The notes under the pieces were generated by a model. The model ran no database searches. It was not told where the DNA came from and saw only the letters and a list, made by a program, of their open reading frames with translations. A stretch of 64,000 nucleotides of DNA from Bacteroidota bacterium (GTDB lineage Bacteria > Bacteroidota > Bacteroidia > B-17B0 > Aurantibacillaceae): NCBI GenBank assembly GCA_013298715.1, contig JAAFIQ010000002.1, positions 310,001 to 374,000 of the forward strand. Reading direction: 5' to 3'. The translations under genes were made by a program, and so were the position numbers. Positions 35,206 to 50,246 of the stretch are shown piece by piece; the first letter of the stretch is position 1, and every line of letters begins with the position of its first letter.

Positions 35206-36023
35206 TAAGACAGTGGCATCTCCCTGCGCTTCATTGGATTGATGGTCAGCACAGGCACATTGCTAATATCTACCATTTTTTGACTCATGGTGCCACTAAA
35301 CATTTCGCCAAAGCTTACATCACGTTTATTCATTTGTACAATTATATCACAACCGTTCTTATTTGCATAATCAACTATGGCAACAGCTACATCTTTGGCA
35401 GGAATAGATTTGTTGGTACAATTAACGTTTTTTTCTTTTATGTATTTTTTTACCTGATTTACATAAGGTAAAATTTTATTCTCGTAGCTTGTATCACCTG
35501 GATCAAATACAGAAACCACGCGAATATCAGCCTTATAGTACTGCGCCAATTGAATCACGGCAGGTACTTTCTCCCTACTTTCGGGCGATAAATCAAATGG
35601 CATTAAAATGGATTTGCAATCAGGAGAAAATGTTGTAGAACGGATAGTTAGCACTGGGCAAGGAGCATTTTTAATAAACTTGCTTGCATTACTGCTACCA
35701 AATAAACTTCTGAACTTTACATGCGCATCAAGCCCTGCAATAATCAAACTTGCTTCTTTTTTTTCTGCGTACTTGTCGGTCTCTTCGTATATATCTCCCT
35801 TTAAAATAGAATAAGAACAAGAAAGTCCACTCTCTTTGTTAGTAGCAATTGCCAGCTCTTTTAGTTCAGCCTCTGTATGCGATGGTTTATCTTCATAAAC
35901 ATACATTAGGTGCAATTTGCAATTAGAATAGCGGGCTAAATTAAACGAGTGTTTTATAGCATTAATCGATTGTTTTGAATAATCAATCGGAATAAGTACA
36001 GTGCCATTTTCTTTAATATGCAT
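35202..36023 (-). CDS. Tandem-domain universal stress protein (UspA)
   Basis: A 273-residue protein with two USP folds (about 8-138 and 145-265). Each starts with a beta strand ending in a D (LIPIDYSKQSINAIKHSF and LMPFDLSPESREKVPAVIQ). The first has a glycine-rich loop SLFGSSNASKFIKNAPCPVL that could bind nucleotide, and the second ends FSGTMSQKMVDISNVPVLTI. It follows the Nramp-USP gene by 96 bp on the same strand, probably as the third gene of the mntR operon, which ties a stress or nucleotide-binding protein to metal uptake. Confidence 0.85.
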   Translation of the reverse strand: MHIKENGTVLIPIDYSKQSINAIKHSFNLARYSNCKLHLMYVYEDKPSHTEAELKELAIATNKESGLSCSYSILKGDIYEETDKYAEKKEASLIIAGLDAHVKFRSLFGSSNASKFIKNAPCPVLTIRSTTFSPDCKSILMPFDLSPESREKVPAVIQLAQYYKADIRVVSVFDPGDTSYENKILPYVNQVKKYIKEKNVNCTNKSIPAKDVAVAIVDYANKNGCDIIVQMNKRDVSFGEMFSGTMSQKMVDISNVPVLTINPMKRREMPLSY

Positions 36024-36119
36024 AGGCTAAGTTTTTGATTAACATAAAATTAAGCTAAAATTTCGATTAAAAACACATTAATTGGTCTTTTTATTAACTT
36101 TTAACGTGTGGAAAGGTTT

Positions 36120-37982
36120 TTATACCAATACCAATGGTACTTTTATTTTATGTCGAACTGCCTCCACAGTTGTTCCTAGTAAAATATCTTTTAAAGTTGT
36201 GTGCCCGTGTGTACCCATCACCAACATATCACACTCATTTTTTGAAACAAGTTCTGGTATAGCAACTTTTGGATTTCCGTACCCTAACTGAATCTCACAG
36301 GCAACAAAAATTTTTGATAATTGTTCTTGGTAATTTTTTAGGTTGAGTACGTCCTCTTCACGTTCTAAATCAAAAGCATTTTCGCCATAAACAACGGCAT
36401 TCGTACTTTCTAGCACATGAATTAATATAATTGTTGAGTTTTTGTTCCCAATTTGTAAGGCCTTATTAATTGCTTTATTATCGCTTTCACTAAAGTCAAC
36501 TGTTACCGCAATTTTTTTAACATCGAGTTCAGTGCTTAATTGTAAAGGTTTTAATTCGTTATGAAAACGTGTGTGTTCTATTCTTTTATCTTTTGTAATA
36601 AGCGGAACAAATATGATGTAGAGTAACATAATAAAACAAAAAATACAAATTGGAACTATTGTAAAACTTATTAATATTGGATTATCTCCTGTTGTTATTA
36701 AATTTTTAATAGTATCAAAAATCATTTTGGCATTTAAGCCAATAATAATTAATGCTGCAACCCAAGAAACAATTTTTTGCCACATTGGGATACAAAATTC
36801 GCCCATCTTTTTTTTATCGCTTACAAAATGGATTAAAGGAATGGTGGCAAAACCTAACTGCAAACTTAAAATTACTTGGCTCACAATTAATAATTTTTCC
36901 ACAGCACCTTCTCCCATATAAACAATTGCTAAAAATGCAGGTACAATGGCAATTAGGCGCGTAAGTAGTCTTCTTATCCATGGTTGTAAACGTAAATTCA
37001 AATAGCCTTCCATAACAACCTGACCTGCTAAAGTACCAGTAATGGTGCTACTTTGACCAGCTGCAATAAGGGCAAGCGCAAATAAAATTGGCGCTAAGGT
37101 GCTACCAAGCATTGGTGCTAACAGCTGGTGCGCATCAGCAATACCTGTTACATTATTATTTCCGTTTTTAAAAAAAGTAGTGGCTGCTAATATTAAAATA
37201 GCTGCATTAACAAATAAGGCAAGGTTTAATGCAACGGCACTATCAATTAAGTTAAATTTAATTGCTTTTTTTATTTCTGTTGGGGTTCTGTTAAACTTTC
37301 TAGTTTGCACAAGGGAACTGTGTAAATAAAGGTTGTGAGGCATTACAGTTGCTCCAATTATCCCAATTGCTATAAACAAAGCTTCCTCGTTTTGAATGGA
37401 TGGAATTATGCCTGTAGCAATTTCGGCAACACTTGGTTGCGCAATTAGGAGCTGAATAAAAAAAGAAACACCTATTAGGGCAACTAAACTAATAATAAAC
37501 GCTTCTAGTTTTCTAATACCTTTATTTAGCAAAAATAGTAAGATGAACGTATCCAATACCGTAATACACACACCTCCTAAAATGCTTATGGATGGAAACA
37601 ATAAATGCAAGCCTATAGCCATACCTATAACCTCGGCCAAATCGCAGGCTGCAATTGCAATTTCTGCGAGTATGTATAAAAATAAATTTACAAATTTTGG
37701 GTAGCTGTCGCGTGAGGCTTGCGCTAAATCTTTACCGCGTACAATACCTAATCTAACACAATGGCTTTGTAAAAGTAAAGCAATTAAATTACTCATTAAT
37801 AGCACCCAAATTAAACTATAACCAAACTTACTACCGCCTGCAATATCAGTGGCCCAATTGCCAGGATCCATATAGCCAACGCTAATCATATAAGCCGGAC
37901 CAAGGAATGCTAAAAATTTCCTAACGCCGGTATTTCCAGTAGTGTTTACACTTGCATTTACTTCTTCTAATGATTTATTCAT
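36120..37982 (-). CDS. mntH: Nramp-type Mn2+/Fe2+ transporter fused to a USP domain
   Basis: A 620-residue protein. The Nramp part (about 1-460) has 11-12 membrane segments, with the metal-binding DPGN of helix 1 (GYMDPGNWATDIAGG) and helix 6 MPHNLYLHSS, so metal transport should be intact. The C-terminal about 145 residues form a universal-stress domain ending VMGTHGHTTLKDILLGTTVE, a complete G-x2-G-x9-G-S/T ATP-binding signature. USP-tailed Nramp proteins occur in Bacteroidota; the tail may gate transport by ATP. It starts 1 bp after the stop of mntR, so it is co-translated with its likely regulator. Confidence 0.92.
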   Translation of the reverse strand: MNKSLEEVNASVNTTGNTGVRKFLAFLGPAYMISVGYMDPGNWATDIAGGSKFGYSLIWVLLMSNLIALLLQSHCVRLGIVRGKDLAQASRDSYPKFVNLFLYILAEIAIAACDLAEVIGMAIGLHLLFPSISILGGVCITVLDTFILLFLLNKGIRKLEAFIISLVALIGVSFFIQLLIAQPSVAEIATGIIPSIQNEEALFIAIGIIGATVMPHNLYLHSSLVQTRKFNRTPTEIKKAIKFNLIDSAVALNLALFVNAAILILAATTFFKNGNNNVTGIADAHQLLAPMLGSTLAPILFALALIAAGQSSTITGTLAGQVVMEGYLNLRLQPWIRRLLTRLIAIVPAFLAIVYMGEGAVEKLLIVSQVILSLQLGFATIPLIHFVSDKKKMGEFCIPMWQKIVSWVAALIIIGLNAKMIFDTIKNLITTGDNPILISFTIVPICIFCFIMLLYIIFVPLITKDKRIEHTRFHNELKPLQLSTELDVKKIAVTVDFSESDNKAINKALQIGNKNSTIILIHVLESTNAVVYGENAFDLEREEDVLNLKNYQEQLSKIFVACEIQLGYGNPKVAIPELVSKNECDMLVMGTHGHTTLKDILLGTTVEAVRHKIKVPLVLV

Positions 37983-37983
37983 A

Positions 37984-38646
37984 CTAATTATTTAATTTAT
38001 ATACATATATGCCATTAGCTACTGTGTTAGACATAAATATGGAGGTGCTATTATTGATGCTAATATTTAAACTTCCATCAAACGTAATTAATTCGTGTAA
38101 TTTAATTATATCGCCAATTTTAATAGAAAGTTTTGTAAGGTACTGTAAAAAGCTTGGATTATCTTGATTTACCATTGAAACCTGATATTTGCCTGGTTTT
38201 GTAATTTTACCAAGTTGTGATAAATTCTGTTTTGTTAAGACTAATTTTTCGTTTGGAATGGGATCTCCATGAGGATCAAATTTAGGTAAACCTAAAAATT
38301 TATCCAATCGGTTTATTAAATCTAAACCCTCAACATGCTCTAATTGTTCAGCAATGGCATGAACTTCGTCCCATTTATAATTTAATTTTTCAACTAAAAA
38401 AACTTCCCATAACCTGTGTTTTCTTATCAATTCTAAAGCTAACTTTTCTCCTTTAGTGCTTAGAGTTACGCCTTGGTATTTTTTGTAGCTTACAAGTTTT
38501 TTATCTGCTAATTTTTTTAGCATATCTGTAATAGATGCTGCTTTTAAATGTAAATGTTCTGATAGTGCAGTTGTAGAAACGCTCCCATCAGCTTGTAATT
38601 TAAAAATAGATTTAATATAATCTTGCTCGTTTTTAGAAATTTGCAT
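37984..38646 (-). CDS. mntR: DtxR/MntR-family metal-dependent repressor
   Basis: A 220-residue protein. The N-terminal winged helix (SKNEQDYIKSIFKLQADG, then TTALSEHLHLKAASITDMLK) is followed by the dimerisation/metal domain (EHVEGLDLINRLDKFLGLPK, then FDPHGDPIP) and a C-terminal SH3-like FeoA domain (about 150-218). It represses metal uptake when Mn2+ or Fe2+ is plentiful. The frame can begin at TTG 38652, but that TTG is part of a TATATTTG promoter box, so ATG 38646 is preferred; the transcript would be leaderless. A DtxR-type dyad at 38677-38692 suggests autoregulation of the mntR-mntH-usp operon. Confidence 0.9.
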   Translation of the reverse strand: MQISKNEQDYIKSIFKLQADGSVSTTALSEHLHLKAASITDMLKKLADKKLVSYKKYQGVTLSTKGEKLALELIRKHRLWEVFLVEKLNYKWDEVHAIAEQLEHVEGLDLINRLDKFLGLPKFDPHGDPIPNEKLVLTKQNLSQLGKITKPGKYQVSMVNQDNPSFLQYLTKLSIKIGDIIKLHELITFDGSLNISINNSTSIFMSNTVANGIYVYKLNN

Positions 38647-38649
38647 GTG

Positions 38650-38657
38650 CAAATATA
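38650..38657 (-). promoter_or_regulatory. -7 box (TATATTTG) of the mntR operon
   Basis: A perfect match ending 3 bp before ATG 38646 on the minus strand. It explains the alternative TTG start as part of the promoter. Confidence 0.5.
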
Positions 38658-38676
38658 AGCATTATCTAAATAATTT

Positions 38677-38692
38677 TTTAGGTTAGTCTAAA
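38677..38692. promoter_or_regulatory. Putative MntR/DtxR operator
   Basis: TTTAGGTTAGTCTAAA is an imperfect palindrome with one mismatched pair. It is close to the actinobacterial DtxR/IdeR consensus TTAGGTTAGCCTAACCTAA over its left half. It lies about 20-35 bp upstream of the -7 box, covering the -33 region of the mntR promoter. Confidence 0.6.
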
Positions 38693-38784
38693 TTTTTATT
38701 GACTTTAAATTAGATACTTTAAAACAAGAATTTTTTAAGAATTTTAAACAAATTAAGCGATGTTAAATGCTTATCTTTAAACCC

Positions 38785-40134
38785 ATGTTTAAAAAAATAA
38801 AGAATATACTTTTTTTAGTCTTAGCGCTATTTTTATCGCAACGTTATACCGCTCAAGTTGCAATAGATAAAGTAATTGGCGTAGTTGCTAAATATCCAAT
38901 TTTATTGAGCGATCTTCAAACTGCAATGTTGGAGCAAACAAAAAGTCAACAGCCAATCGATAAATGCAAAGCTATGGAGGCTTTAGTTTATCAAAAATTA
39001 TTATTAGCACAGGCAGATAGGGATAGCGTTACCGTTACAGACCAGGAAGTTGAAACAGAACTTTCGCGTAGAATGGCTTATTTTATTAACCAATTTGGAA
39101 GTGAAGACAAGTTAGAGGAATTTTATGGTAAACGCACCAATGTTATTAAAGATGAGTTACGGTCGGATGTGCAGGAGCAGCTTATTGCACAAAAAATGGC
39201 TAGTAAAATTACGGGCGATGGAAAAATAACACCCGCTGAGACACGTTTGTACTATAAATCTTTACCCGAAGATAGTTTGCCATTAATCAACTCAGAGGTT
39301 GAATTACAACAAATTGCCAAAATGCCACAGTTTAGTAAAGAGGCCAAATTAGATGCTAAAACAAGCTGTGAAGAATTAAGAAAGCGTGTTATTAACGGCG
39401 AGAGTATGGCAGTGCTTGCTGGACTTTACACGGAAGATGGTGGAAGCAAAATGGATAGAGGGTTGATAAAAAACATGACCAAAGGTATTATGGTTCCTGA
39501 GTTTGAAGCGACAGCATTTAGATTAAAAGAAGGAGAAATTTCAAACGTATTTGAAACCAATTATGGTTACCATTTTATACAACTCATTGCGCGAAAAGGT
39601 GAGTTGCTTGATGTAAGACACATTTTAAAGATGCCAAAAATGCAAGATGAAGACTATTATAAATGTAAAAAAGAGTTAGATACAATTGCAAAGCAGATAA
39701 GAGAAGGAAAAATTACTTTTGAAGATGCTGCAAAAAAATACAGCGATGATAAAGATACCAAACAAAACGGAGGCATATTAGTAAACCAACGCTCAGCGAA
39801 TACAAAATTTAGTAATGAAGAGTTGAGTCAAACAGACCCAAACATAATTATTACTTTAAATAATATGACAATTGGCGATATCACAAATCCGATGCAGTTT
39901 GTAAATCCGGCAGATAATAAAGGAGGATACAGAATTTTAAAATTAAAAAATAGAATTGACCCACACAAAGCAAATATGAAAGACGATTATCAATTACTGA
40001 ATAATATGGCAGCAATGGAGCATAACAAAAAATCTATAAAAGATTGGATTAAAAAACGCTCTAAAATTACTTATATTAAAATTGATAATGAATATATTTG
40101 TAATTGGGAGAATGATTGGACTTTGGCTAATTAA
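38785..40134 (+). CDS. surA: Periplasmic chaperone/peptidyl-prolyl isomerase SurA
   Basis: A 449-residue protein with a signal peptide (MFKKIKNILFLVLALFLSQR, then YTAQ), a SurA N-terminal chaperone domain (VAIDKVIGVVAKYPILLSDL onward) and two PpiC parvulin domains (about 165-265 and 272-375; GLYTEDGGSKMDRG and KKYSDDKDTKQNGG are the active-site-like loops). It assists outer-membrane protein folding. Start 38785 is chosen because it begins the signal peptide; the frame runs 6 codons further. It is 10 bp before a TPR protein gene and divergent from mntR. Confidence 0.92.
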   Translation: MFKKIKNILFLVLALFLSQRYTAQVAIDKVIGVVAKYPILLSDLQTAMLEQTKSQQPIDKCKAMEALVYQKLLLAQADRDSVTVTDQEVETELSRRMAYFINQFGSEDKLEEFYGKRTNVIKDELRSDVQEQLIAQKMASKITGDGKITPAETRLYYKSLPEDSLPLINSEVELQQIAKMPQFSKEAKLDAKTSCEELRKRVINGESMAVLAGLYTEDGGSKMDRGLIKNMTKGIMVPEFEATAFRLKEGEISNVFETNYGYHFIQLIARKGELLDVRHILKMPKMQDEDYYKCKKELDTIAKQIREGKITFEDAAKKYSDDKDTKQNGGILVNQRSANTKFSNEELSQTDPNIIITLNNMTIGDITNPMQFVNPADNKGGYRILKLKNRIDPHKANMKDDYQLLNNMAAMEHNKKSIKDWIKKRSKITYIKIDNEYICNWENDWTLAN

Positions 40135-40144
40135 AATTAACAAA

Positions 40145-41635
40145 ATGAAAAAAATAGTTTTATTTACCTTACTTGTAATATCAACTTTTGCCAACGCGCA
40201 GAGGCACGAAGAAGAGAAAAAATATGATGTAAGAGGTAGTGGTGAAAGTCCTAATGTCAACAAGTATCGTGGCCCTTATAACGATTCTGCCTTTAAAATC
40301 CCATTTAATACCTACGAACAAAAAAATTATCCAAAAGCATACGAAGAATATACAACCTATTTAAAAAAATATCCAACTGATTTCTTAGCACTATACAATC
40401 GAGCTTTATGTAGCTATAATTTAAAGGATTACAAAACTGCCATCCGCGATTTTACCGAATGCATTTTCTTAAAGAAGAAAGATGTAAATACATACTATAT
40501 GCGCGGTTTAAGCAACTTTAATTTAAAAGAATACAAGTTAGCCGAGAAAGATTTTGATACCACTTTAACTTATAATAAAAATTTTCATAAAGCATATTGC
40601 TATAAAGGCGCCTGCTTAAACGAAGATAAAAAGTACAGCGAAGGTTTAAAGTTATTGGATATTGCTGCTAGCATTACAAGTACTTTTGAACCTACGTTTT
40701 TTTACCGTAATGTTTCTAGGTATTACACCGGCGATTACGAGGGAGGGTTAAGCGATTGCGAAAAAGCGATAGCTTTACAAAAATCATATTTAACAACCTT
40801 TTGGAAAGGGTCTCATTTAATAGAATTAAAAAGGCATAAAGAAGCAGCTATTATATTTGATACAGTGATTGCTCACGAACCAAAAAATGCAAAAGCCTAT
40901 TTTAATAGAAGTCTTTGTCATTATGATAATGGAGATTATAAAACTGGTTTAAAAGATGTAACCTCTGCGATAGAGTTGTCGCCAAGCTCGCCTTCTTATT
41001 ACTATCAAAGAGGTTTGTGTAATTTCTTTTTGGGGAATTATGAAACTACAGTTACTGATTGTAACAGCGCACTTACACTAGGATATAAAGATGCAAGGGC
41101 TTATTGCTTTAGAGGCGCAAGTCATTACTATTTAAGTAAAGACGATTTGGCTTATGAAGATTTGAACAAAGCAATTGAATTAAAACCAAGTTATGAATCA
41201 AGTTACTATTACCGTGCAAAACTAAATTTCGCTAACGCTAAATACGATGCCGGGATAGCAGATTGCGATCAAGCGCTGAAATTAATTAAGACGGTTGACT
41301 CTTATAGAATTAAAGGAAACTGTTTAACCGAACTAAAAAAATACGATGAAGCAATTCAAAATTACAATTTAGGTTTAGAAATAAAAAAAGACAGTTATTT
41401 GACAACCTTAGACAGGGGCATTACTTATTATTACCAAGAAAAGGACGACCTTGCACGAAAAGATTTTGATAAAGCAATTTCACTCAATAAAACACAAGGA
41501 GAACCTTATTACTTTAGAGGCAAACTCAAAAAAATTGCTAACGACAATGCTGGCGCCTGCGCTGATTTAAAACAAGCACAAACATTAGGCTTTAAAAAGG
41601 CAAGCGATGAACTCGTTAAACTCGGCTGTAAATAA
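40145..41635 (+). CDS. Secreted TPR-repeat protein
   Basis: A 496-residue protein with a signal peptide (MKKIVLFTLLVISTFANAQ) followed by about a dozen tetratricopeptide repeats from about 60 to the end (for example NYPKAYEEYTTYLKKYPTDF and ECIFLKKKDVNTYYMRGL). The last repeat ends with GACADLKQAQTLGFKKA. TPRs form a protein-binding solenoid, here in the periplasm or on the surface. The start at 40145 begins the signal peptide; the frame extends upstream into surA and is rejected. It follows surA by 10 bp and is probably co-transcribed, hinting at a role in outer-membrane protein assembly. Confidence 0.85.
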   Translation: MKKIVLFTLLVISTFANAQRHEEEKKYDVRGSGESPNVNKYRGPYNDSAFKIPFNTYEQKNYPKAYEEYTTYLKKYPTDFLALYNRALCSYNLKDYKTAIRDFTECIFLKKKDVNTYYMRGLSNFNLKEYKLAEKDFDTTLTYNKNFHKAYCYKGACLNEDKKYSEGLKLLDIAASITSTFEPTFFYRNVSRYYTGDYEGGLSDCEKAIALQKSYLTTFWKGSHLIELKRHKEAAIIFDTVIAHEPKNAKAYFNRSLCHYDNGDYKTGLKDVTSAIELSPSSPSYYYQRGLCNFFLGNYETTVTDCNSALTLGYKDARAYCFRGASHYYLSKDDLAYEDLNKAIELKPSYESSYYYRAKLNFANAKYDAGIADCDQALKLIKTVDSYRIKGNCLTELKKYDEAIQNYNLGLEIKKDSYLTTLDRGITYYYQEKDDLARKDFDKAISLNKTQGEPYYFRGKLKKIANDNAGACADLKQAQTLGFKKASDELVKLGCK

Positions 41636-41800
41636 TTCTTCAAAAACGGTTTTTAAATTTGAAATAAAGGATTAAAGTTTTTACATATTCTAATGTTAAA
41701 ACTTCAACAAATATAAATTTTCAACCGTAATAGAAGGCTAACCAATTTACTAACCTTATTCTTTTTTATGTGCGCTTTTAATTCATTCTATCTTAAAAAA

Positions 41801-42037
41801 ATAATACCAAATCTAAATATCAAATAGTCCAATAATTTAATTAGTCATATCGATTTTTGCTTTGAAATGATTCTTTGTCAAAAACGTATCGAGACACCAA
41901 CGTAATAACAAATTAAGATAGTAAACATCAATTGTCTCGATACAATTTCGCAAGAGGCACCTTCGGCAAGCTAAGTTACCAAAGCAAAATTTATTCGACA
42001 CGACATTGGACTAAGCAGTAACTGTAATTGGTATAAT
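41801..42037. mobile_element. 237-bp imperfect palindrome, MITE-like repeat element
   Basis: The region reads as two inverted arms. Terminal ATAATACCAA (41801-41810) pairs with TTGGTATAAT (42028-42037) with one mismatch; TAGTCCAAT (41825-41833) pairs with ATTGGACTA (42005-42013); TTTTGCTTTG (41855-41864) pairs with CAAAGCAAAA (41980-41989); GTATCGAGACA (41886-41896) pairs with TGTCTCGATAC (41933-41943). The outer two blocks keep exactly equal spacing (33 bp) in both arms. It contains no ORF. The 556-bp gap 41636-42191 holds nothing else recognisable apart from a TAATTTTG box near its right end. Confidence 0.65.
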
Positions 42038-42128
42038 ACAATAATAACTTAATTACTAATTAAAGTTAGCTTCGTTCTCAAATTAAAAATGAGTACTTGG
42101 GACTATTTACAAACTTTATTTTTCGAGT

Positions 42129-42136
42129 TAATTTTG
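42129..42136 (+). promoter_or_regulatory. -7 box (TAATTTTG) upstream of the T9SS cargo gene at 42192
   Basis: A perfect match 55 bp before the ATG; no well-placed -33 TTG was found. Confidence 0.35.
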
Positions 42137-42191
42137 TTGAGAGCAAACTTTTTCTAAACTAGTATTTAATCAACATTTAAAATAAAACATC

Positions 42192-44738
42192 ATGAAAAAT
42201 AAAATTTTAAAATGTTTTTTGTTATTGATTTGTTTAAAAGCAAATTCGCAACAAAGCCAATGGCATAAATTTACTCTCAACAGTAAATTAAATTTTGTGC
42301 AAATGCAAGATAGTATTGATGATTATTTTACTCGTAATCCTGAATTTAAAGAAAGCGAAAATGAGAATGAAGGTTCAGAATTTAGTAAATACCAACAATG
42401 GAAATGGTTTTGGGAGTCTCGCTTAACAGAAGATGGAAAACTACCCTCATCGGAATTAGTACAAAACGCTTTTCTAGAAGCAAAGGCGATACAAACGGGG
42501 CAACGGGCAGTAGCACAGAGTCAATGTCCTTGGAATTATATCGATATCACATCTAATTCTGGTGGTTATTGGGGAATGGGCAGAACAACATCAATTGCCT
42601 TTGACCCAGGGAACTATCAAATTTTTTATCTTTCTTGTCCAGGCGGTGGCGTTTGGAAAACCACTAATGGTGGAGCCTCCTACACCTGTATGGATGTTGG
42701 CTTGCCTTATGGTGCCACCAGTTTTTTAAAAATAGATCCAACAAATCCAAACACATTGTACGTATCAAATGGTGATCATGATGGATGGTGGCAATACTCA
42801 ACAGGTATTTACAAGTCAATTGATGCTGGATTAACTTGGAATCCAACGGGTTTAAACACAGCAGCTGTTAATACTGCAATTTATGCGCTTGACATAAATC
42901 CAATAAATTCAAATGAGTTACTAGTTGCAACAAGTTCAGGTTTGTACAAATCAATTAACGCTGGCGTTACTTTCTCTTTAATTTCTCCTGGCAGTCATTA
43001 TGATGTAAAATATATGCCTTTTAACGGAAATACTATTTATAAAATATTTAATAGTGCAGTTCATAAATCTACAAACGGAGGAAATACCTGGAATCAACTT
43101 TTTAATTTAAATAATAACAACTGGAGAGCAAAGTTAGTAACTACAAGTCTTGATCCTAATCGTATTGCAGTTGCTTCAGAGTTACAAAATAATCCGTTGC
43201 GTTTACATGAAAGTATAAATGGAGGAGCTAATTTTGTTTTTAGATCAAATTTACCAGAAAGTTATTATTTATCCTATTCTCCACTAAATGTAAATATATT
43301 TTTTAATGGAGGAGTAAATAATTATGTTTCTAATAATCAAGGGGTAAACTGGACACAAATCTCCAAATGGGCTAATGGCGTTCCTGCTCCGCCAAACACC
43401 CCTGTTGTGCATGCTGATGTGCATGATTACGGGATATCTAACAATCCTCAACATCTTTATGTGTGTAATGACGGCGGGGTTTATAAACTAAATTTAAATA
43501 ACGGTACTTGGACAGAACTTTCTAACGGATTATTAAACCATTTAATATACAGAATTGGTAACGCCACAAATAGCAGTGTATTTATGTTATCAGGCACACA
43601 AGATAACGGAGGAAGAAAAAGAATTGGTGCTAATTCCTGGACGAATGTAAACGGCGGTGATGGTATGGAAGTAGCAATTAAACCTGGCGATACAAGTACT
43701 TATTACACAACTTATGTTAATGGGAGAATTACTAGGCATACAAATAGTGGTGCTAATCAAATTAATATAACCCAAAACATTTATAATAGTGCCGCTGTTT
43801 TCACCGCAGGCATTTCAAAGCCAGTTGGTAAATGGGTAACACCATATGATTTATTACCGCAAAATCCAAAATCTCTAATTGCGGGTTACGATACAATTTT
43901 TAAATCATGCGATCAAGGGAATACTTGGTTTCCTATTAGTGGAAATTTATCAGGCGGTTGGAAAATTGATGATTTAGAAATTAGTCCAACCGATTCGAAC
44001 AGAATTTATGCCTGTGAAGGAAATCGATTTTACAGAACAATAAACAGTGGCGCTACTTGGTCAACAACAATTTTACCAACTAGCTATAGAATTACGCGAA
44101 TAGCTGTTCATCCTACAAATTCAAATATTGTGTGGATAACCAGAGGAGGATATAATAGTAAAAATAGCAACACACCAAAAGTTTATAAAAGTGTAGATGG
44201 TGGTACAACTTGGCAGGTTTATTCAACAGGGCTTCCTGATGTGCCGCACAACACAATCATTTATCAAAATATGAGCGCAGATAGACTTTTTGTTGCGAAT
44301 GATTTAGGTGTATACTATAGAGATAGCACTATGGCTTCATGGATGCCATTCGGAACAAATTTACCTATAACTTTTTGCAACGATTTAAAAATTAGTTACT
44401 CAGCAAACAAAATAAGAGTAGCCACATTTGGACGAGGTATATACGAAGCAGACTTATGCGCCCCAATTATAACAAATGTAAGCAATGAGTTAATTGCTAA
44501 CGAAAAAGTTATTGTTTATCCAAATCCGAGCAACGGCATTTTTGTAGTGAGTAATAAAACCATCGAAAAGTTGGAATACATAAAAGTGTTTGCAATAGAT
44601 GGAAAATTAATTCCTGCCGAAGTAACCGAACTAAACAGTTTGCAAAGCCTAGTAAAAATAAATTGTGCTCCTGGAGTTTATTTAGTGGAAACTAAAGTTG
44701 GATCAAAAATAACACGCTTAAAAATCATTAATAACTAA
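42192..44738 (+). CDS. Secreted BNR/VPS10-like beta-propeller protein with T9SS type A sorting domain
   Basis: An 848-residue protein with a signal peptide (about 1-19, ending ANSQ). It contains repeated sortilin/BNR-type blades, recognisable from Asp-box-like turns such as KTTNGGASYTCMDVG, KSIDAGLTWNPTG, KSTNGGNTWNQL, RTINSGATWSTT and KSVDGGTTWQVY, probably two propellers. The last about 80 residues are a T9SS type A sorting domain (VIVYPNPSNGIFVV near its start, ending TRLKIINN). It is therefore exported by Sec, then T9SS, and attached to the surface or released. Related proteins are annotated as glycosyl hydrolases, but I cannot assign activity. A metallopeptidase gene follows after 25 bp. 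Confidence 0.87.
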   Translation: MKNKILKCFLLLICLKANSQQSQWHKFTLNSKLNFVQMQDSIDDYFTRNPEFKESENENEGSEFSKYQQWKWFWESRLTEDGKLPSSELVQNAFLEAKAIQTGQRAVAQSQCPWNYIDITSNSGGYWGMGRTTSIAFDPGNYQIFYLSCPGGGVWKTTNGGASYTCMDVGLPYGATSFLKIDPTNPNTLYVSNGDHDGWWQYSTGIYKSIDAGLTWNPTGLNTAAVNTAIYALDINPINSNELLVATSSGLYKSINAGVTFSLISPGSHYDVKYMPFNGNTIYKIFNSAVHKSTNGGNTWNQLFNLNNNNWRAKLVTTSLDPNRIAVASELQNNPLRLHESINGGANFVFRSNLPESYYLSYSPLNVNIFFNGGVNNYVSNNQGVNWTQISKWANGVPAPPNTPVVHADVHDYGISNNPQHLYVCNDGGVYKLNLNNGTWTELSNGLLNHLIYRIGNATNSSVFMLSGTQDNGGRKRIGANSWTNVNGGDGMEVAIKPGDTSTYYTTYVNGRITRHTNSGANQINITQNIYNSAAVFTAGISKPVGKWVTPYDLLPQNPKSLIAGYDTIFKSCDQGNTWFPISGNLSGGWKIDDLEISPTDSNRIYACEGNRFYRTINSGATWSTTILPTSYRITRIAVHPTNSNIVWITRGGYNSKNSNTPKVYKSVDGGTTWQVYSTGLPDVPHNTIIYQNMSADRLFVANDLGVYYRDSTMASWMPFGTNLPITFCNDLKISYSANKIRVATFGRGIYEADLCAPIITNVSNELIANEKVIVYPNPSNGIFVVSNKTIEKLEYIKVFAIDGKLIPAEVTELNSLQSLVKINCAPGVYLVETKVGSKITRLKIINN

Positions 44739-44763
44739 AAGCAATACCTGAAAACTAAATACC

Positions 44764-47061
44764 ATGAAAAAAGCAGTATCACTAATTTTGTTTATGTTAG
44801 TATTAACTACTACTAACGCCCAAAAAAAACCCGAGGATGGAACATGGGCAATGATTGAAGAAAAGTCTATTGAGGTTAATAGTAAGCGACAAATAATCCC
44901 AAAGAGTTACTTAACGTATAAACTTAATCTACCAGTTCTAAAAGAAAATTTAAGCACTGCATTGACTGAGGAAAAAGTACTTATTGATAAAAGTACTTGT
45001 ATCATTACATTACCTGTACCAAACGGCGAAATTCAGCAATTTAGGGTAGTTCAGTCGTCTATTATGGAACCCGAACTTGAAATGCAGTTTCCGAATATTA
45101 AAACATATAGTATTAAGGGAATTGATGATCCTTACGCAAATGGAAAAATAGATTATAATGAGTTTGGCTTTCACGCTATGGTGCGTTCAATTAACGGCGA
45201 TTTTTTTGTTGATCCATACTCGGTTGGGAATACCGAAAATTATATAACTTATTATTTATCAAACTTTGAAAAAGATCCTTCACAAAAAATACCTGAAGTT
45301 GGTGTTTTAACTGACGATGGACAAAAGAAAACCAACACTTCTCATAAAAAAAAAGATGGTGGCGAAGAAAAAATAAGTAGCTCAAACCCTCCGGCAACAT
45401 GCGTTGGAGCCAATTTAAGAAAGTACCGACTTGCGGTTGCTTGTACAGGCGAGTATGCAGTTGCCGCAACAGGAAATGCTAACCCAACGATAGCACAAAC
45501 GCTTTCAAAAATCGTAACAACAGTTAATAGGGTTGACGGTGTTTTTGAAACTGAAGTTGTGGTTAGATTAGTTTTGGTGGCAACCGAAACAAATGTGATT
45601 TTTACAAATGCGAGTACAGATCCTTTCTTAGGTAATACAACAGCAACGCTATTAATTAACGAAAGTCAAACCGTAATATCAAACACTATTGGTACATCAA
45701 ATTACGATATTGGTCATACTTTCAGCACTGGTGCTGGTGGATTAGCTGGCTTAGGTGTAGTTTGTATTAATTCTCAAAAAGCAAGAGGTGTAACCGGAAG
45801 TTCAAATCCTGTTGGCGACCCTTATGATATTGATTATGTAGCGCATGAAATTGGGCATCAGTTTGGGGGTAATCATACTTTTAATTCTAATACAGGGCAA
45901 TGCGGCTTTAACAATAGAAATGCTGCAACTGCTGTAGAACCTGGCAGTGGTATTACTTTAATGGCTTATGCAGGAATATGTGGAACAAATGATATTGCGA
46001 ATAATAGTATACCTTATTTTCATGCAATTAGTTATGATGAGATTGTAAATTTCACGAACATTCAAAATGGTAATTCGTGCGCGGTAACTACGACTACAGG
46101 AAACAATCCGCCTGTTGTAACAGGTTCAGGAAATTATGCTATTCTTATTTCAACTCCTTTTTTACTAACTGGCAGCGCCACTGATTCGAATAATGATGCG
46201 CTTACTTATTCATGGGAAGAGACCTCTGTTGGAGTTGTTGGTAATTGGAATGCAAACGTAAAACCTTACTTTTGTTCGTACGCTCCGGTTACCAGCCCCA
46301 ACATATGGTTTCCTTTACCAGCTTTAATCCTAGCAGGAAATTATACTGGAGTAAAAGGAGAATTTTTACCACAAACTCCTCAAACCTTACAATTTAGATT
46401 AACCGCACGCGATAATAAAATGGGTGGCGGTGGCGTTTGTTATGCCATTAATACTATTACTGTTGCTAGTGCAGGTCCGTTTAGCGTTACCGTTCCTAGT
46501 GCTTCGGGTATAATTTGGAATTCAGGTTCACAAAATTTAGTAACCTGGGATGTAAATGGAACAAATGCAGCGCCAATAGCGTGTGATAGCGTAAGAATTT
46601 TAATTTCTTTAAACGCTGGGCAAACATATTCTACATTAATTGCTTCTACACCAAATGATGGTACTCAAATTGTTACAGCCCCAACGGTAAGTAATACTAT
46701 TAATACATGCAGAATAAAAGTTGAAAGTAAAGGCAACATATTTTTTGATGGTAGTAATAATAATTTTTCAATTTCAACAATTACTGGAATTAAGTCAACT
46801 TCAGGCGATGCGAATAGTTTTTATGTTTATCCTAACCCAGCTAATTCAAAAATAAATTTAGTAGCTAGCAGTCTTCAAAGTACGGCAAAAACAGAAGTTC
46901 AAATTGTAGATCTTTTGGGAAAGGTATTATTAACGAAAGCCTTTTTAGGCCAAACCGATTTGAACGAAAGTATTGATATAACTGAGTTTACTAGAGGTAT
47001 ATATTTTATTTCAGTTGTAAATGGTAATAAACATTTTACAACTAAGTTAATTAAAGAGTGA
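44764..47061 (+). CDS. Secreted reprolysin-like (M12B-type) zinc metallopeptidase with T9SS sorting domain
   Basis: A 765-residue protein with a signal peptide (about 1-19, ending TNAQ) and a propeptide to about 205 (a Lys-rich stretch near 195-205 may be the cleavage site). The catalytic domain carries HEIGHQFGGNH (zinc ligands His361, His365 and His371, catalytic Glu362) and the Met-turn LMAYAGICG. A fibronectin/Ig-like region (about 450-670) and a type A sorting domain (FYVYPNPANSKINLV onward, ending TKLIKE) follow. It probably degrades extracellular protein. It is 25 bp after the propeller gene and likely co-transcribed. Confidence 0.92.
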   Translation: MKKAVSLILFMLVLTTTNAQKKPEDGTWAMIEEKSIEVNSKRQIIPKSYLTYKLNLPVLKENLSTALTEEKVLIDKSTCIITLPVPNGEIQQFRVVQSSIMEPELEMQFPNIKTYSIKGIDDPYANGKIDYNEFGFHAMVRSINGDFFVDPYSVGNTENYITYYLSNFEKDPSQKIPEVGVLTDDGQKKTNTSHKKKDGGEEKISSSNPPATCVGANLRKYRLAVACTGEYAVAATGNANPTIAQTLSKIVTTVNRVDGVFETEVVVRLVLVATETNVIFTNASTDPFLGNTTATLLINESQTVISNTIGTSNYDIGHTFSTGAGGLAGLGVVCINSQKARGVTGSSNPVGDPYDIDYVAHEIGHQFGGNHTFNSNTGQCGFNNRNAATAVEPGSGITLMAYAGICGTNDIANNSIPYFHAISYDEIVNFTNIQNGNSCAVTTTTGNNPPVVTGSGNYAILISTPFLLTGSATDSNNDALTYSWEETSVGVVGNWNANVKPYFCSYAPVTSPNIWFPLPALILAGNYTGVKGEFLPQTPQTLQFRLTARDNKMGGGGVCYAINTITVASAGPFSVTVPSASGIIWNSGSQNLVTWDVNGTNAAPIACDSVRILISLNAGQTYSTLIASTPNDGTQIVTAPTVSNTINTCRIKVESKGNIFFDGSNNNFSISTITGIKSTSGDANSFYVYPNPANSKINLVASSLQSTAKTEVQIVDLLGKVLLTKAFLGQTDLNESIDITEFTRGIYFISVVNGNKHFTTKLIKE

Positions 47062-47339
47062 ATTTAGTATCTAATAAATTTAAAAGTTAGTTGGAAAGTT
47101 TATTCTACAAATGAACTTATTCTAATGTTGAAGAAGTATGCTTAAGAATTTGGATTCAAACTATTAATTAGAATTTTTACATAATTCTCCCACAGTATAA
47201 AGGTTACTTTTGAATTTAACTCTGAAATAAATTCCACTAAAATGAACGGTCATTATAGAGATTTCTTTTTTTGCAATATGATTCAATTATACGCCCTCGA
47301 GCAAGTTATATAAACAATTCAAAATTAAATCAATCAGTT

Positions 47340-49514
47340 ATGAAAAAGCCAATACAAATTTTGTGTGCCGCCTTTACACTAACAAGTGGCGTTATAAATG
47401 CACAAGCAGATAAAAAAATTCAGCCTTGTATTACTTACGAAGTTATGGATCAAGTTTTTAAAGAAGACCCAGCTGCAAAACAACGCTATAAGGCGACTCA
47501 GACCATTTTAAATTCGCAAAAAGAGGAATATGAAAAAAACCTTGCGGCTAGTAAAACGTTGGCGCCTCCCGTTTATACTATCCCAGTTGTTTTCCATATT
47601 TTACATCAAGGTGGTTCTGAAAATATTAGTGATGCAACTATTAACCAAGCCTTAAAATGGTTGAATGATGATTATGCAAGAACAAGTGCAGATGCTAATA
47701 CAACTGTGCCGCCATTCAACACTTCATTTATTGATTCTGAAATAAAATTTGTACTCGCTAAGCTAGACCCAACTGGGAATTGCACAAATGGAATTATCCG
47801 CAAATATGATTCAAGAACTGTATGGAATAGGAATCCAAGTGGGGCTTTTTCGTACTTATACAATGGCATCACCTGGGATCCAACTAAATACATGAATGTA
47901 ATTGTAGTGAAAGATATTGTTGCTGCGCCTGGGCAAATAGGTATAGTTGTAGGATATACTTTCAAGCCTGGTGTTTGGCCAACTGGTTCCGTTCAAGATG
48001 CAATTGTATTCAACCATAACTTTTTAAATTCAATGGTTGATGCACGTTCGTTAAGCCATGAGGCAGGGCATTGGTTTAACTTGCCACATACTTGGGGGAA
48101 TACTAATAATCCGGGTATAGCTTGCGGTGATGATGGTATTGATGATACGCCAATCACTAAAGGTGAAGCTAGTGGTTGTCCTTCGAGCTCTGTTTCAGCA
48201 TGTACTCAAACAAATCCGGCTATGGTGGGATTAAACAACGTTCAAAACATCATGAATTATTCGGACTGCCCACGAAATTTTACAACAGGACAAACTAACG
48301 TAATGCGGGCGGCATTGGCTTCAGCAACTGGAGGTAGAAGTAATTTGTGGAGTAATGCAAATTTAATAGCTACAGGAATTAATAATACGGTAACTTGTTT
48401 ACCAATTGCAGGTTTTGCAAGTATCACTAATAAATACAAAGTTTGTAGTGGAGCTAGTTTAACTATGAGAGATGCTTCTTATAATGCGGCAATTACAAGC
48501 TATTCATGGAGCGGACCAAATAGCGTTGTGTTTGCAAACTCTAATGCGTCCATAACCAATGTTGTGTTTAATACTCCTGGAATTGTTACCATTACTTTAA
48601 CAGTTGGCAACGCCCAAGGAAATTCTGCTTCAACAAGAACTGTTGACGTGGATGGCTTAACTGCAGCTATTACTGGACCTACAATAGAAAGTTTTGAAGG
48701 AACTAATTTACCAGTCAATTGGAGCATAACCAATGGTAGTGGTGTTGGCTGGGAGCAAACAAACCTCGCATCTAAGGATGGAGCTAATAGCTATTTTGTA
48801 GATGGGCCTTTAAGTTCGGCTGGTCAATCAGATCTTCTACAAATGCCAATGATGGACATTTTAAACAACCAAGGTGGTACTTTTGAGTTTGCCTATGCTT
48901 ACGCTAGAAATTCTACAACCCATAATGATAACTTAATTATTGAGGGCAGCCTAGATTGTGGAGCTACCTGGAAAATAATTAAACAATTCAATGCAAGTAC
49001 TTTGGCATCTGGTTCAGGAGGAATTGTGCCAGTTACGAATTCTGTGTTTATTCCAACAGGTGCACAATGGAAAACATACTCCTCAAATATAGGTGGCTTT
49101 GGTATTGATATTGATTGGTTTGATTTTTCAAATTCCGCAAGAGTAATGGTTCGCTTTAATTTTATTGAAGATGCAACAAACGGCGCAGGCAATAGAATAT
49201 ACATAGATAAAGTAAATTTTGCAGGAAACTCGGTTGGTATTAATGAACTCACAAAAAGTATTGGTTTAGGACTGTTTCCTAATCCTACAAAGGGTAACTC
49301 AACAGTTAAATTCACATTAGGCGATCCTTCAAAAATCAGTATTGAAGTCGTAGATGTTTTAGGAAAAGTTGTAATTCCTGTTGAGAGTAGGATTTACCCT
49401 TCTGGCGAACATAGCTTACCAATCAATTCTAATTCAACTTTAAATAAAGGAATTTATTTTGTAAACATTAATTTGAATGGGATTAATATGTCGCGCAAAT
49501 TGATTGTTGAATAA
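47340..49514 (+). CDS. Secreted M43 (pappalysin-like) metallopeptidase with PKD domain and T9SS sorting domain
   Basis: A 724-residue protein. The signal peptide starts at ATG 47340 (MKKPIQILCAAFTLTSGVIN, cleavage after AQ); an upstream ATG at 47271 adds 23 non-signal residues and is rejected. The M43 catalytic domain (about 80-345) has HEAGHWFNLPH with ligands His240, His244 and His250, and Met-turn NIMNYSDC. A PKD domain (about 360-440), a jelly-roll/MAM-like region (about 450-630) and the sorting domain (LGLFPNPTKGNSTVKF, ending SRKLIVE) complete it. An extracellular protease, second of two in tandem. A terminator follows at 49531. Confidence 0.92.
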   Translation: MKKPIQILCAAFTLTSGVINAQADKKIQPCITYEVMDQVFKEDPAAKQRYKATQTILNSQKEEYEKNLAASKTLAPPVYTIPVVFHILHQGGSENISDATINQALKWLNDDYARTSADANTTVPPFNTSFIDSEIKFVLAKLDPTGNCTNGIIRKYDSRTVWNRNPSGAFSYLYNGITWDPTKYMNVIVVKDIVAAPGQIGIVVGYTFKPGVWPTGSVQDAIVFNHNFLNSMVDARSLSHEAGHWFNLPHTWGNTNNPGIACGDDGIDDTPITKGEASGCPSSSVSACTQTNPAMVGLNNVQNIMNYSDCPRNFTTGQTNVMRAALASATGGRSNLWSNANLIATGINNTVTCLPIAGFASITNKYKVCSGASLTMRDASYNAAITSYSWSGPNSVVFANSNASITNVVFNTPGIVTITLTVGNAQGNSASTRTVDVDGLTAAITGPTIESFEGTNLPVNWSITNGSGVGWEQTNLASKDGANSYFVDGPLSSAGQSDLLQMPMMDILNNQGGTFEFAYAYARNSTTHNDNLIIEGSLDCGATWKIIKQFNASTLASGSGGIVPVTNSVFIPTGAQWKTYSSNIGGFGIDIDWFDFSNSARVMVRFNFIEDATNGAGNRIYIDKVNFAGNSVGINELTKSIGLGLFPNPTKGNSTVKFTLGDPSKISIEVVDVLGKVVIPVESRIYPSGEHSLPINSNSTLNKGIYFVNINLNGINMSRKLIVE

Positions 49515-49530
49515 TACTGAGATATAAATA

Positions 49531-49564
49531 AAAAGTCGTTTCAAATGAAGCGGCTTTTTTTATT
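49531..49564 (+). terminator. Hairpin terminator after the M43 peptidase gene
   Basis: AAAAGTCGTTTC, loop AAAT, GAAGCGGCTTTT with one G-T pair, then a T tract; 17 bp after the stop. It may also act on the convergent regulator gene ending at 49587. Confidence 0.8.
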
Positions 49565-49586
49565 TGTAACGTTTTACTCTAACTTG

Positions 49587-50246
49587 TTATGTGCCAATAA
49601 AAGGCTCATTCTCTATTGCAAATTTAAGTAACGCATTTTGATCGCCTGGCAACTCAAGTTTTTTAATAATATTATGGCGGTGATTTTTTATTGTTTTTTC
49701 TGAAACAAACAGTTTATCAGCAATGTCCTTCGTTTTAATCTGTTTAGCTATTAATAACAAAACATCTTTTTCTGTTTTCGTAAGTAGTTTTAATTTTTTA
49801 TTGAGCTCATCATCTAAAAGAATATTATTTTTTGATTTAACAAGTAATGCTTCAATATCTTTTCCAATATATTTTTCTCCTGCGTTAATTGACGATAGAG
49901 CGCTGTCAATTTCATGTAAGGCATTTTCTTTTAAAATATAACCACTAGCGCCAATCTGCATGGCTTTGTTATATAAATCAAGTTCTTTGTGCATGGTTAA
50001 GAAAAGCACCTTAGTTTCGATTTTAGAATTAGTTATGTGCTCACAAATTTTAATGCCGTTCATACCTGGCATATCTATGTCTAAAATTGCAATATCTGGT
50101 CTAGCATCTAAAATAAGTTTTAAGGCCTCATTTCCATCTCCAACTTCACTTAGTATAACATAGGATTTATTTTTCTGTAAATAGTTTACTAGTCCAAATC
50201 TAACAAAAGGATGATCGTCTGCTATAATTAATTTAATTTTGTTCAT
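49587..50246 (-). CDS. NarL/FixJ-family response regulator
   Basis: A 219-residue protein. Receiver domain with IIADDHP, phospho-acceptor Asp56 in AILDIDMPGMNG and Lys in YILKEN; LuxR-type HTH with LTKTEKDVLLLIAKQ and KLFVSEKTIKNHRHNI. The preferred start ATG 50246 (MNKIKLIIADD) overlaps the kinase stop region by 14 bp, showing translational coupling. It lies amid five T9SS cargo genes and is paralogous to the regulator at 25201. Confidence 0.9.
   Translation of the reverse strand: MNKIKLIIADDHPFVRFGLVNYLQKNKSYVILSEVGDGNEALKLILDARPDIAILDIDMPGMNGIKICEHITNSKIETKVLFLTMHKELDLYNKAMQIGASGYILKENALHEIDSALSSINAGEKYIGKDIEALLVKSKNNILLDDELNKKLKLLTKTEKDVLLLIAKQIKTKDIADKLFVSEKTIKNHRHNIIKKLELPGDQNALLKFAIENEPFIGT

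Follow-up and report, generated by a model that had tools for sequence, protein, structure and literature searches.

The imperfect palindrome that lies upstream of a secretion-cargo gene in this Bacteroidota genome is, with high confidence, one old copy of a MITE, a non-autonomous transposon of an IS630-type family, an identity that explains why an unannotated palindrome stands beside such a gene. Indeed, the same ends are found on non-coding units, on one complete IS630-family element and on broken IS630 copies of the same genome, which makes the element a MITE. Its movement in trans was most likely due to an IS630 transposase of this kind, as the matching ends and flanking triplets suggest, and it is from these sequence features that we infer MITE activity. 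Moreover, the target-site triplet shared by the MITE and its helper points, with less certainty, to a 3-bp duplication in a superfamily for which 2 bp is the textbook length.

Within the window, that is, the whole stretch of 64,000 nucleotides that was analysed, the original prediction had described a 237-bp palindrome with terminal inverted repeats (TIRs), four inverted block pairs and no ORF. The palindrome is real, but the element proper spans 229 bp (41805-42033) between two TAA, and its TIRs are imperfect and 28 bp long (Table 1). All four block pairs were found (41801-41810/42028-42037, 41825-41833/42005-42013 and the two inner pairs of Table 1), and the first two blocks are indeed equally spaced in both arms, with a gap of 14 bases in each. 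The outermost pair is, however, not an exact inverse: read inward, the right end is ATTATACCAA and the left one ATAATACCAA, the sole mismatch being the middle base of the flanking triplet, which falls outside the element as now bounded. None of the ORFs of at least 60 aa listed for 36000-50000 overlaps the element, which, at 229 bp and without a transposase ORF of at least 60 aa, has the size expected of a MITE (below about 500 bp). The ORF before it ends at 41635 and the one after it starts at 42192; we take them, by eye, to be a TPR gene and a T9SS cargo gene, respectively; neither gene is broken, the cargo start codon is 158 bp downstream, and the putative promoter box of the cargo gene is outside the element. 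The element also contains a 23-bp block that includes CTTCGGCAAGCTCAG (with one mismatch in the window); some copies have this block and four are cleanly without it, and it could represent a separate small insertion or deletion.

Table 1. Features of the MITE copy, in window coordinates.
Feature	Position	Strand	Basis or remark
MITE copy, 229 bp, non-coding, imperfect palindrome throughout	41805-42033	.	Genome matches and copy alignments
Left target-site duplication, TAA	41802-41804	.	TAA / TACCAA...TTGGTA / TAA layout; middle-base coupling over 22 units
Right target-site duplication, TAA	42034-42036	.	Element layout
Left TIR, TACCAAATCTAAATATCAAATAGTCCAA	41805-41832	+	24/28 against the N-terminal-side and 23/28 against the C-terminal-side IS end of the own genome
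Right TIR, inward TACCAATTACAGTTACTGCTTAGTCCAA	42006-42033	-	18/28 against the left TIR; 20/28 against each of those two IS ends
Inner arm, TTTTGCTTTG	41855-41864	.	Partner 41980-41989; partly within consensus pairs
Innermost left arm, GTATCGAGACA	41886-41896	.	Inverted repeat and consensus fold
Innermost right arm, TGTCTCGATAC	41933-41943	.	Inverted repeat and consensus fold
23-bp block	41959-41981	.	Missing in 4 of 11 aligned copies (L014, L016, L018, L021b)

A single copy would speak against a mobile element, as the original prediction had pointed out, and the search for further copies that it proposed showed the element to be multi-copy. With a 341-bp query, 46 places of the own genome (4.01 Mb, 46 contigs) were matched at E<=10, and 17 of these matches, including the window's copy, were long (E<=2e-33). 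Four of the 17 are contig-edge halves, whose triplets pair C24 with C10 (TTA) and C8 with C29 (TAA); with the halves presumably paired off in this way, the 237-bp subfamily has about 15 dispersed copies, as expected of a MITE. The window's copy is 81-90% identical to nine of ten other aligned copies and 77% to the tenth, whereas L009 and L010 are 99% identical to each other, so that the window's copy is an older one. A second subfamily, a near-perfect hairpin of 160 bp, comprises seven close copies (five identical, two one base off) and a diverged one, a near-identity that argues for recent movement. Two units of 217-218 bp share their arms with the 237-bp form, and the other lengths are represented by single units. 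Altogether, 22 units were delimited from TIR to TIR in the own genome, i.e., 21 non-coding ones of 102-233 bp and one IS. They are intergenic, have varied neighbours, and no clear gene interruption by any of them was seen in this genome; at C7:86421-86637 and C44:10786-10945, the duplicated TAA doubles as the stop codon of the neighbouring ORF, thus leaving the protein unchanged. At E<=1e-5, the 237-bp sequence was found in one of 60 genomes, its own; the element had no match among 72,556 plasmid and 50,697 phage records at E 1e-5, and its inner stretch no exact match in genome_contigs or viral_contigs.

Other mobile sequences were encountered in and beside these copies. Two copies of the 237-bp MITE, L012 (C12:421600-423800) and L020 (C27:5900-8100), harbour a nested element of another MITE-like family, which is about 230 bp long, has the ends GGGTTCACTCAAAA...TTTTTGAGTGAACCC and is unrelated to the first; the nested elements have 6-bp direct repeats, TAATTA and TAACTA, recognized by eye. 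At L039 (from C7:112009-112204 on) and L046 (from C8:63245-63404 on), a second element, an IS end in the former and an older MITE in the latter, starts right at the TTA adjoining the MITE, as if this triplet were a favoured target.

Regarding the ends, TIRs of about 28 bp (TACCAA...TAGTCCAA) are common to several non-coding subfamilies and to IS630-family elements of the own genome, and thus link the MITE to an autonomous element. Allowing up to 3 mismatches, the TIR pattern has 59 matches in this genome against none for the reversed control; it is present in 19 of the 60 genomes (the own one counted), namely 18 from within the genus plus G041 from a different family, and the reversed control gave no match across all 60. 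In G041, which belongs to the same class, 27 matches were counted, indicating a rich MITE/IS population beyond the genus. Contig-edge IS630 pieces have ends that match the left TIR of the MITE copy L009 at 25 of 28 positions, while the best of 20,000 shuffles of the comparison with the N-terminal-side IS end reached 23. The left TIR of the window's copy agrees with the end of the complete IS on C5 at 19 of 28 positions, below the closest IS copies, which are assembly-broken or truncated. In four of five N-terminal-side IS ends, the similarity between MITE and IS reaches about 50 bp beyond the left TIR (66% over 91 columns, E 2e-5); elsewhere it is limited to the ends, plus short weak matches, and the IS does not explain the MITE interior. 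As the likeness is mostly at the ends, a simple derivation of the MITE from the IS by internal deletion is unsupported.

A transposase with matching ends, which the original prediction had suggested looking for, is indeed encoded in the own genome. The complete IS (C5:73179-74340, 1162 bp) has similar TIRs, is flanked by TTA on each side and contains two ORFs overlapping in the -1 frame. Its ORF2 matches NF033545 transpos_IS630 (E 2.9e-33, 115.6 bits for a cut-off of 100) and PF13358 DDE_3 (E 8.7e-19, 68.3 bits for a cut-off of 28.6), while ORF1, with 57 bits, and a piece on C8 stay under the cut-off of NF033545. At five contig edges, the TIR is followed by a translated IS630-like N-terminus and, at six places, by DNA of the C-terminal part, the longest of which, on C8, was translated; C8 is a truncated remnant in which E replaces the second catalytic D. 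We infer that the N-terminal-side and C-terminal-side ends belong to one IS. In the IS630 family, 34 residues separate the second D from the E (DD34E); the C5 copy departs from this spacing with 31 residues between D106 and E138. A complete relative of 1161 bp in G034 is flanked by TAA on each side and, like the C5 IS, has TTTTAAAAAAA between its ORFs. Moreover, TTTA7 or a longer run stands just ahead of ORF2 in all of eleven loci (L060, L135, L128, L148, L149, L158, L163, L182, L189, L195 and L238), mostly as TTTTAAAAAAA and with A8 in L195; its retention suggests a conserved -1 frameshift, the overlap of two ORFs itself being listed for L060, L135 and L128.

From these features, the following course of events can be proposed. 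A DDE transposase of the IS630 type, encoded by two overlapping ORFs and probably produced through a -1 frameshift at TTTTAAAAAAA, would bind the MITE TIRs in trans and excise the MITE, which would then be inserted at a TNA site, where repair would duplicate the triplet. The window's copy would have landed in this way in the gap that separates the TPR gene from the T9SS cargo gene, and the long hairpin would be a by-product of its palindromic make-up, with no sign of selection as RNA.

Target-site duplications, which the original prediction had proposed to look for, are present as TAA on both sides of the window's element. To count them over the genome, ends were paired by TIR letters only, leaving aside copies whose ends are degenerate or lost (L011, L015, L017, both L021), copies interrupted by repeats (L012, L020), contig-edge halves (the edge copy of L013, L019, L022, L023), diverged partials (L024, L025, L026, L029), unpaired TIR matches and two spurious end pairings; by eye, L011 has TTA/TTA, while L015 and both L021 are without a clear duplication. 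All 22 units carry T.A on both sides, and the two triplets are identical in 20 of them (8 TAA, 12 TTA), the other two having TAA/TGA. Positions flanking the triplet on its outer side agree in 8/22 and 12/22, the latter value arising from flank letters that are often T. The middle base thus differs among sites yet matches within each site, which is a sign of duplication, and MITE and helper have the same kind of duplication, the C5 IS being among the 20 units. Among the loci retrieved from other genomes of the genus, triplets were identical in six of eight units (at most 2 mismatches per end, length of 154-162 or 1161 bp). A search of 40 genomes of the genus for an empty site of the MITE copy C44:10786 gave none: the joined 700-bp flanks of this copy have some match in 26 of the 39 other genomes, and the sole match crossing the junction (47 letters in G034, E 2e-4) belongs to a different locus, as the neighbouring gene is absent there.

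Relatives beyond the genus were sought in genome_contigs with the ORF2 alignment A1. Among the best 80 of 446 relatives, all belong to Bacteroidota groups according to record titles, except the MAGs L184 (Alphaproteobacteria) and L212 (Bifidobacterium). A fixed end pattern was present at both ends in 30 of the 80 loci, with identical triplets in 28 (14 TAA, 12 TTA, 2 TCA) and TAA/TTA in the other two (L153, L157). In Flavobacterium sp. NK2020 (CP051546), a single chromosome, all 21 copies have an identical TNA triplet, and seven of nine loci with this end pattern outside NK2020 agree as well. Of the 50 other loci, full flanks are available for 21; when these were searched more loosely, by eye, seven showed outer ends of that kind, of which four agree (L152, L154, L199 and L216, all TTA) and three disagree (L150 and L193, TAA/TTA; L203, TTA/TAA with ends TACG), whereas the other 14 have different ends or none that could be seen. 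Triplet agreement outside NK2020 is thus just 11/16, weak evidence at most if taken alone, and the clade may be mixed in its duplication type. In six loci, L196, L197, L204 and L205 (CP058702) and L181 and L194 (Flavobacterium), the best inverted repeats, AAATAGACCAAAA... and ATATAGACCAATTT..., are of another kind, so that ends vary within the clade.

NK2020 also provides empty sites, for one IS copy. When flanks were joined with one triplet, long open frames spanning the junction appeared in some copies, notably at L188 (250 codons on one side and 266 on the other) and L170 (159 and 276), and vanished on a shift of one or two bases, while the majority of the 21 copies lie in short, uninformative frames. 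L173, a relative of the helper IS, is inserted in an ISL3 transposase gene (PF01610); its joined 300-nt site occurs whole 12 times in the NK2020 record, eight times at 100% and full length and four times at 99-100% with a one-letter length difference, the filled copy being found as two pieces. These empty sites show a true duplication and exclude the reading in which only an inner TA is the target (empty site TNA-TA-TNA). The two L173 flanks overlap by 5 letters (TATAA), and this site alone therefore leaves the duplication length unfixed. In a further NK2020 locus, L166, a copy of the clade's IS lies within a helicase/restriction-type frame or at its end.

The main alternative is that the duplication is the usual 2-bp TA, the third base agreeing by chance or through an extra A/T of the element at one end. 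The NK2020 open frames and the L173 empty site suit it as well as they do a 3-bp TAA, provided that the element has one extra base. Moreover, among the five of 16 loci elsewhere that disagree, L150, L153, L157 and L193 combine a left TAA with a right TTA, as does a copy in Gloeocapsa; this is the form expected from TA and element ends ATACC...GGTAT, one base longer. Against it, the third base agrees in 20/22 units of the own genome and 21/21 copies in NK2020 though it varies between copies, and L163 and L182 have TCA on both sides, a triplet that holds no TA. The case for 3 bp rests on this varying base that agrees in two genomes and on the two TCA/TCA copies, and we regard the 2-bp alternative as rather unlikely. 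A 3-bp triplet duplication is thus partly supported as a modest new variant, strongly in two genomes and in a mixed manner elsewhere. More broadly, we think it reasonably probable that a bacterial subgroup of IS630/Tc1-mariner elements, with two ORFs and an A7 shift site, cuts with a 3-nt stagger at TNA and drives its own hairpin MITEs. This subgroup would be one of Bacteroidota and perhaps also of cyanobacteria, to judge from one of the two single copies that carry ends of this type. ORF2 matches 575 plasmid records, every one below 60% identity, and ends were checked in three cyanobacterial ones: Gloeothece citriformis has TAA / TACCAATTCTC ... GAGAATTGGTA / TAA together with TTTTAAAAAAA, Gloeocapsa sp. 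PCC 7428 shows the TAA/TTA combination, and no ends of that type were found in the Chroococcidiopsis record.

A MITE of mobile origin could also have been domesticated, so as now to regulate or insulate the T9SS cargo gene from its upstream position. Its position 158 bp ahead of the cargo start and the identity that it still shares with nearly all aligned copies would suit such a role, but it has drifted more than young copies such as L009 and L010, its sole match within the window range is itself, and the 22 units have varied neighbours; domestication therefore appears improbable. For the cargo gene itself, 40 genomes of the genus yielded no close orthologue, the best identity besides itself being 38%.

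The original prediction had left a choice between a transposon remnant and a structured RNA; copy number, TIRs, triplet and matching IS bear out the first, and the second, for instance a regulatory leader, sRNA or attenuator of the cargo gene kept for its hairpin, is very improbable. The proposed folding of both strands did give structures stronger than chance, with -50.3 kcal/mol (z -4.4) on the plus strand and -68.4 kcal/mol (z -6.8) on the minus strand, and none of 200 shuffles was as good in either case. However, there is no Rfam match up to E 1, none of the 38 predicted pairs is compensated over 11 copies (covariation term +1.93, unfavourable), copies occur in varied places with transposon boundaries, and the region 41600-42250 has no terminator-like site and promoter-like sites at shuffle level (4 against 3.6 expected). 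With neither a curated family match nor compensatory changes, membership of a structured RNA family was rejected. Regarding the helper, PIF/Harbinger elements make TWA and the IS1031 group TNA duplications; the TWA triplet would thus suit an IS5/PIF-type transposase, an option that is nonetheless hardly credible given that the ISs with matching TIRs encode DDE_3/IS630 transposases. Three genome loci of the IS4/IS5 type (PF01609, one below the family cut-off) had no exact TWATACCAA in the stretches covered.

While the MITE as such is ordinary, its target duplication, in addition to the TIR, links it to its helper and bears on how Tc1/mariner-type transposases, with their textbook TA and 2-bp stagger, choose and cut their targets. 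If true, a 3-nt stagger would run against the rule of TA duplication in the bacterial branch of this superfamily, and a 3-bp group in a complete, many-copy host such as Flavobacterium sp. NK2020 would render its structural basis testable. In the titles and the opening lines of the abstracts retrieved, no 3-bp duplication is reported for a bacterial IS630 element; ISfinder may contain such entries.

Elements suitable for comparison are known from the same phylum as the host studied here, to which Cardinium and Porphyromonas gingivalis belong, and from fungi, in which Fot elements are found; the latter are eukaryotic and belong to another transposase clade than the helper. A comparable element is RUP of Streptococcus pneumoniae (107 bp), which has IS630-Spn1-like TIRs and IS630-Spn1 as proposed helper, and which is likewise a small, non-coding, intergenic and folded repeat with TIRs resembling an IS630-family element of the same genome (PMC2229807, PMC3049150). 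Compared by description, RUP has a TIR of 9 bp and targets that contain TA, in contrast to the TIRs of about 28 bp and TWA triplet found here (PMC2229807). MITECca01 of Cardinium (about 240 bp) is akin in being of similar size, IS-derived, lineage-specific and mostly intergenic, but its helper is ISCca4 of the IS982 family instead of an IS630 (PMC9769881). BrickBuilt of P. gingivalis is also a MITE with IS-like TIRs and differs in its IS5-like TIRs, internal minisatellite and varying duplication length (PMC4596501). Regarding the helper, ISY100/IS630 elements, of Tc1/mariner type, have a transposase of the same superfamily; the IS630 family is described as inserting into TA and duplicating these 2 bp, as in 34 of 39 products of the in vitro assay of that study (PMC2170065), whereas the elements described here have a triplet repeat in two genomes. 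Within the IS630-Tc1-mariner group, Fot elements (pogo group) have TAA duplications in 341 of 385 cases (PMC7386202).
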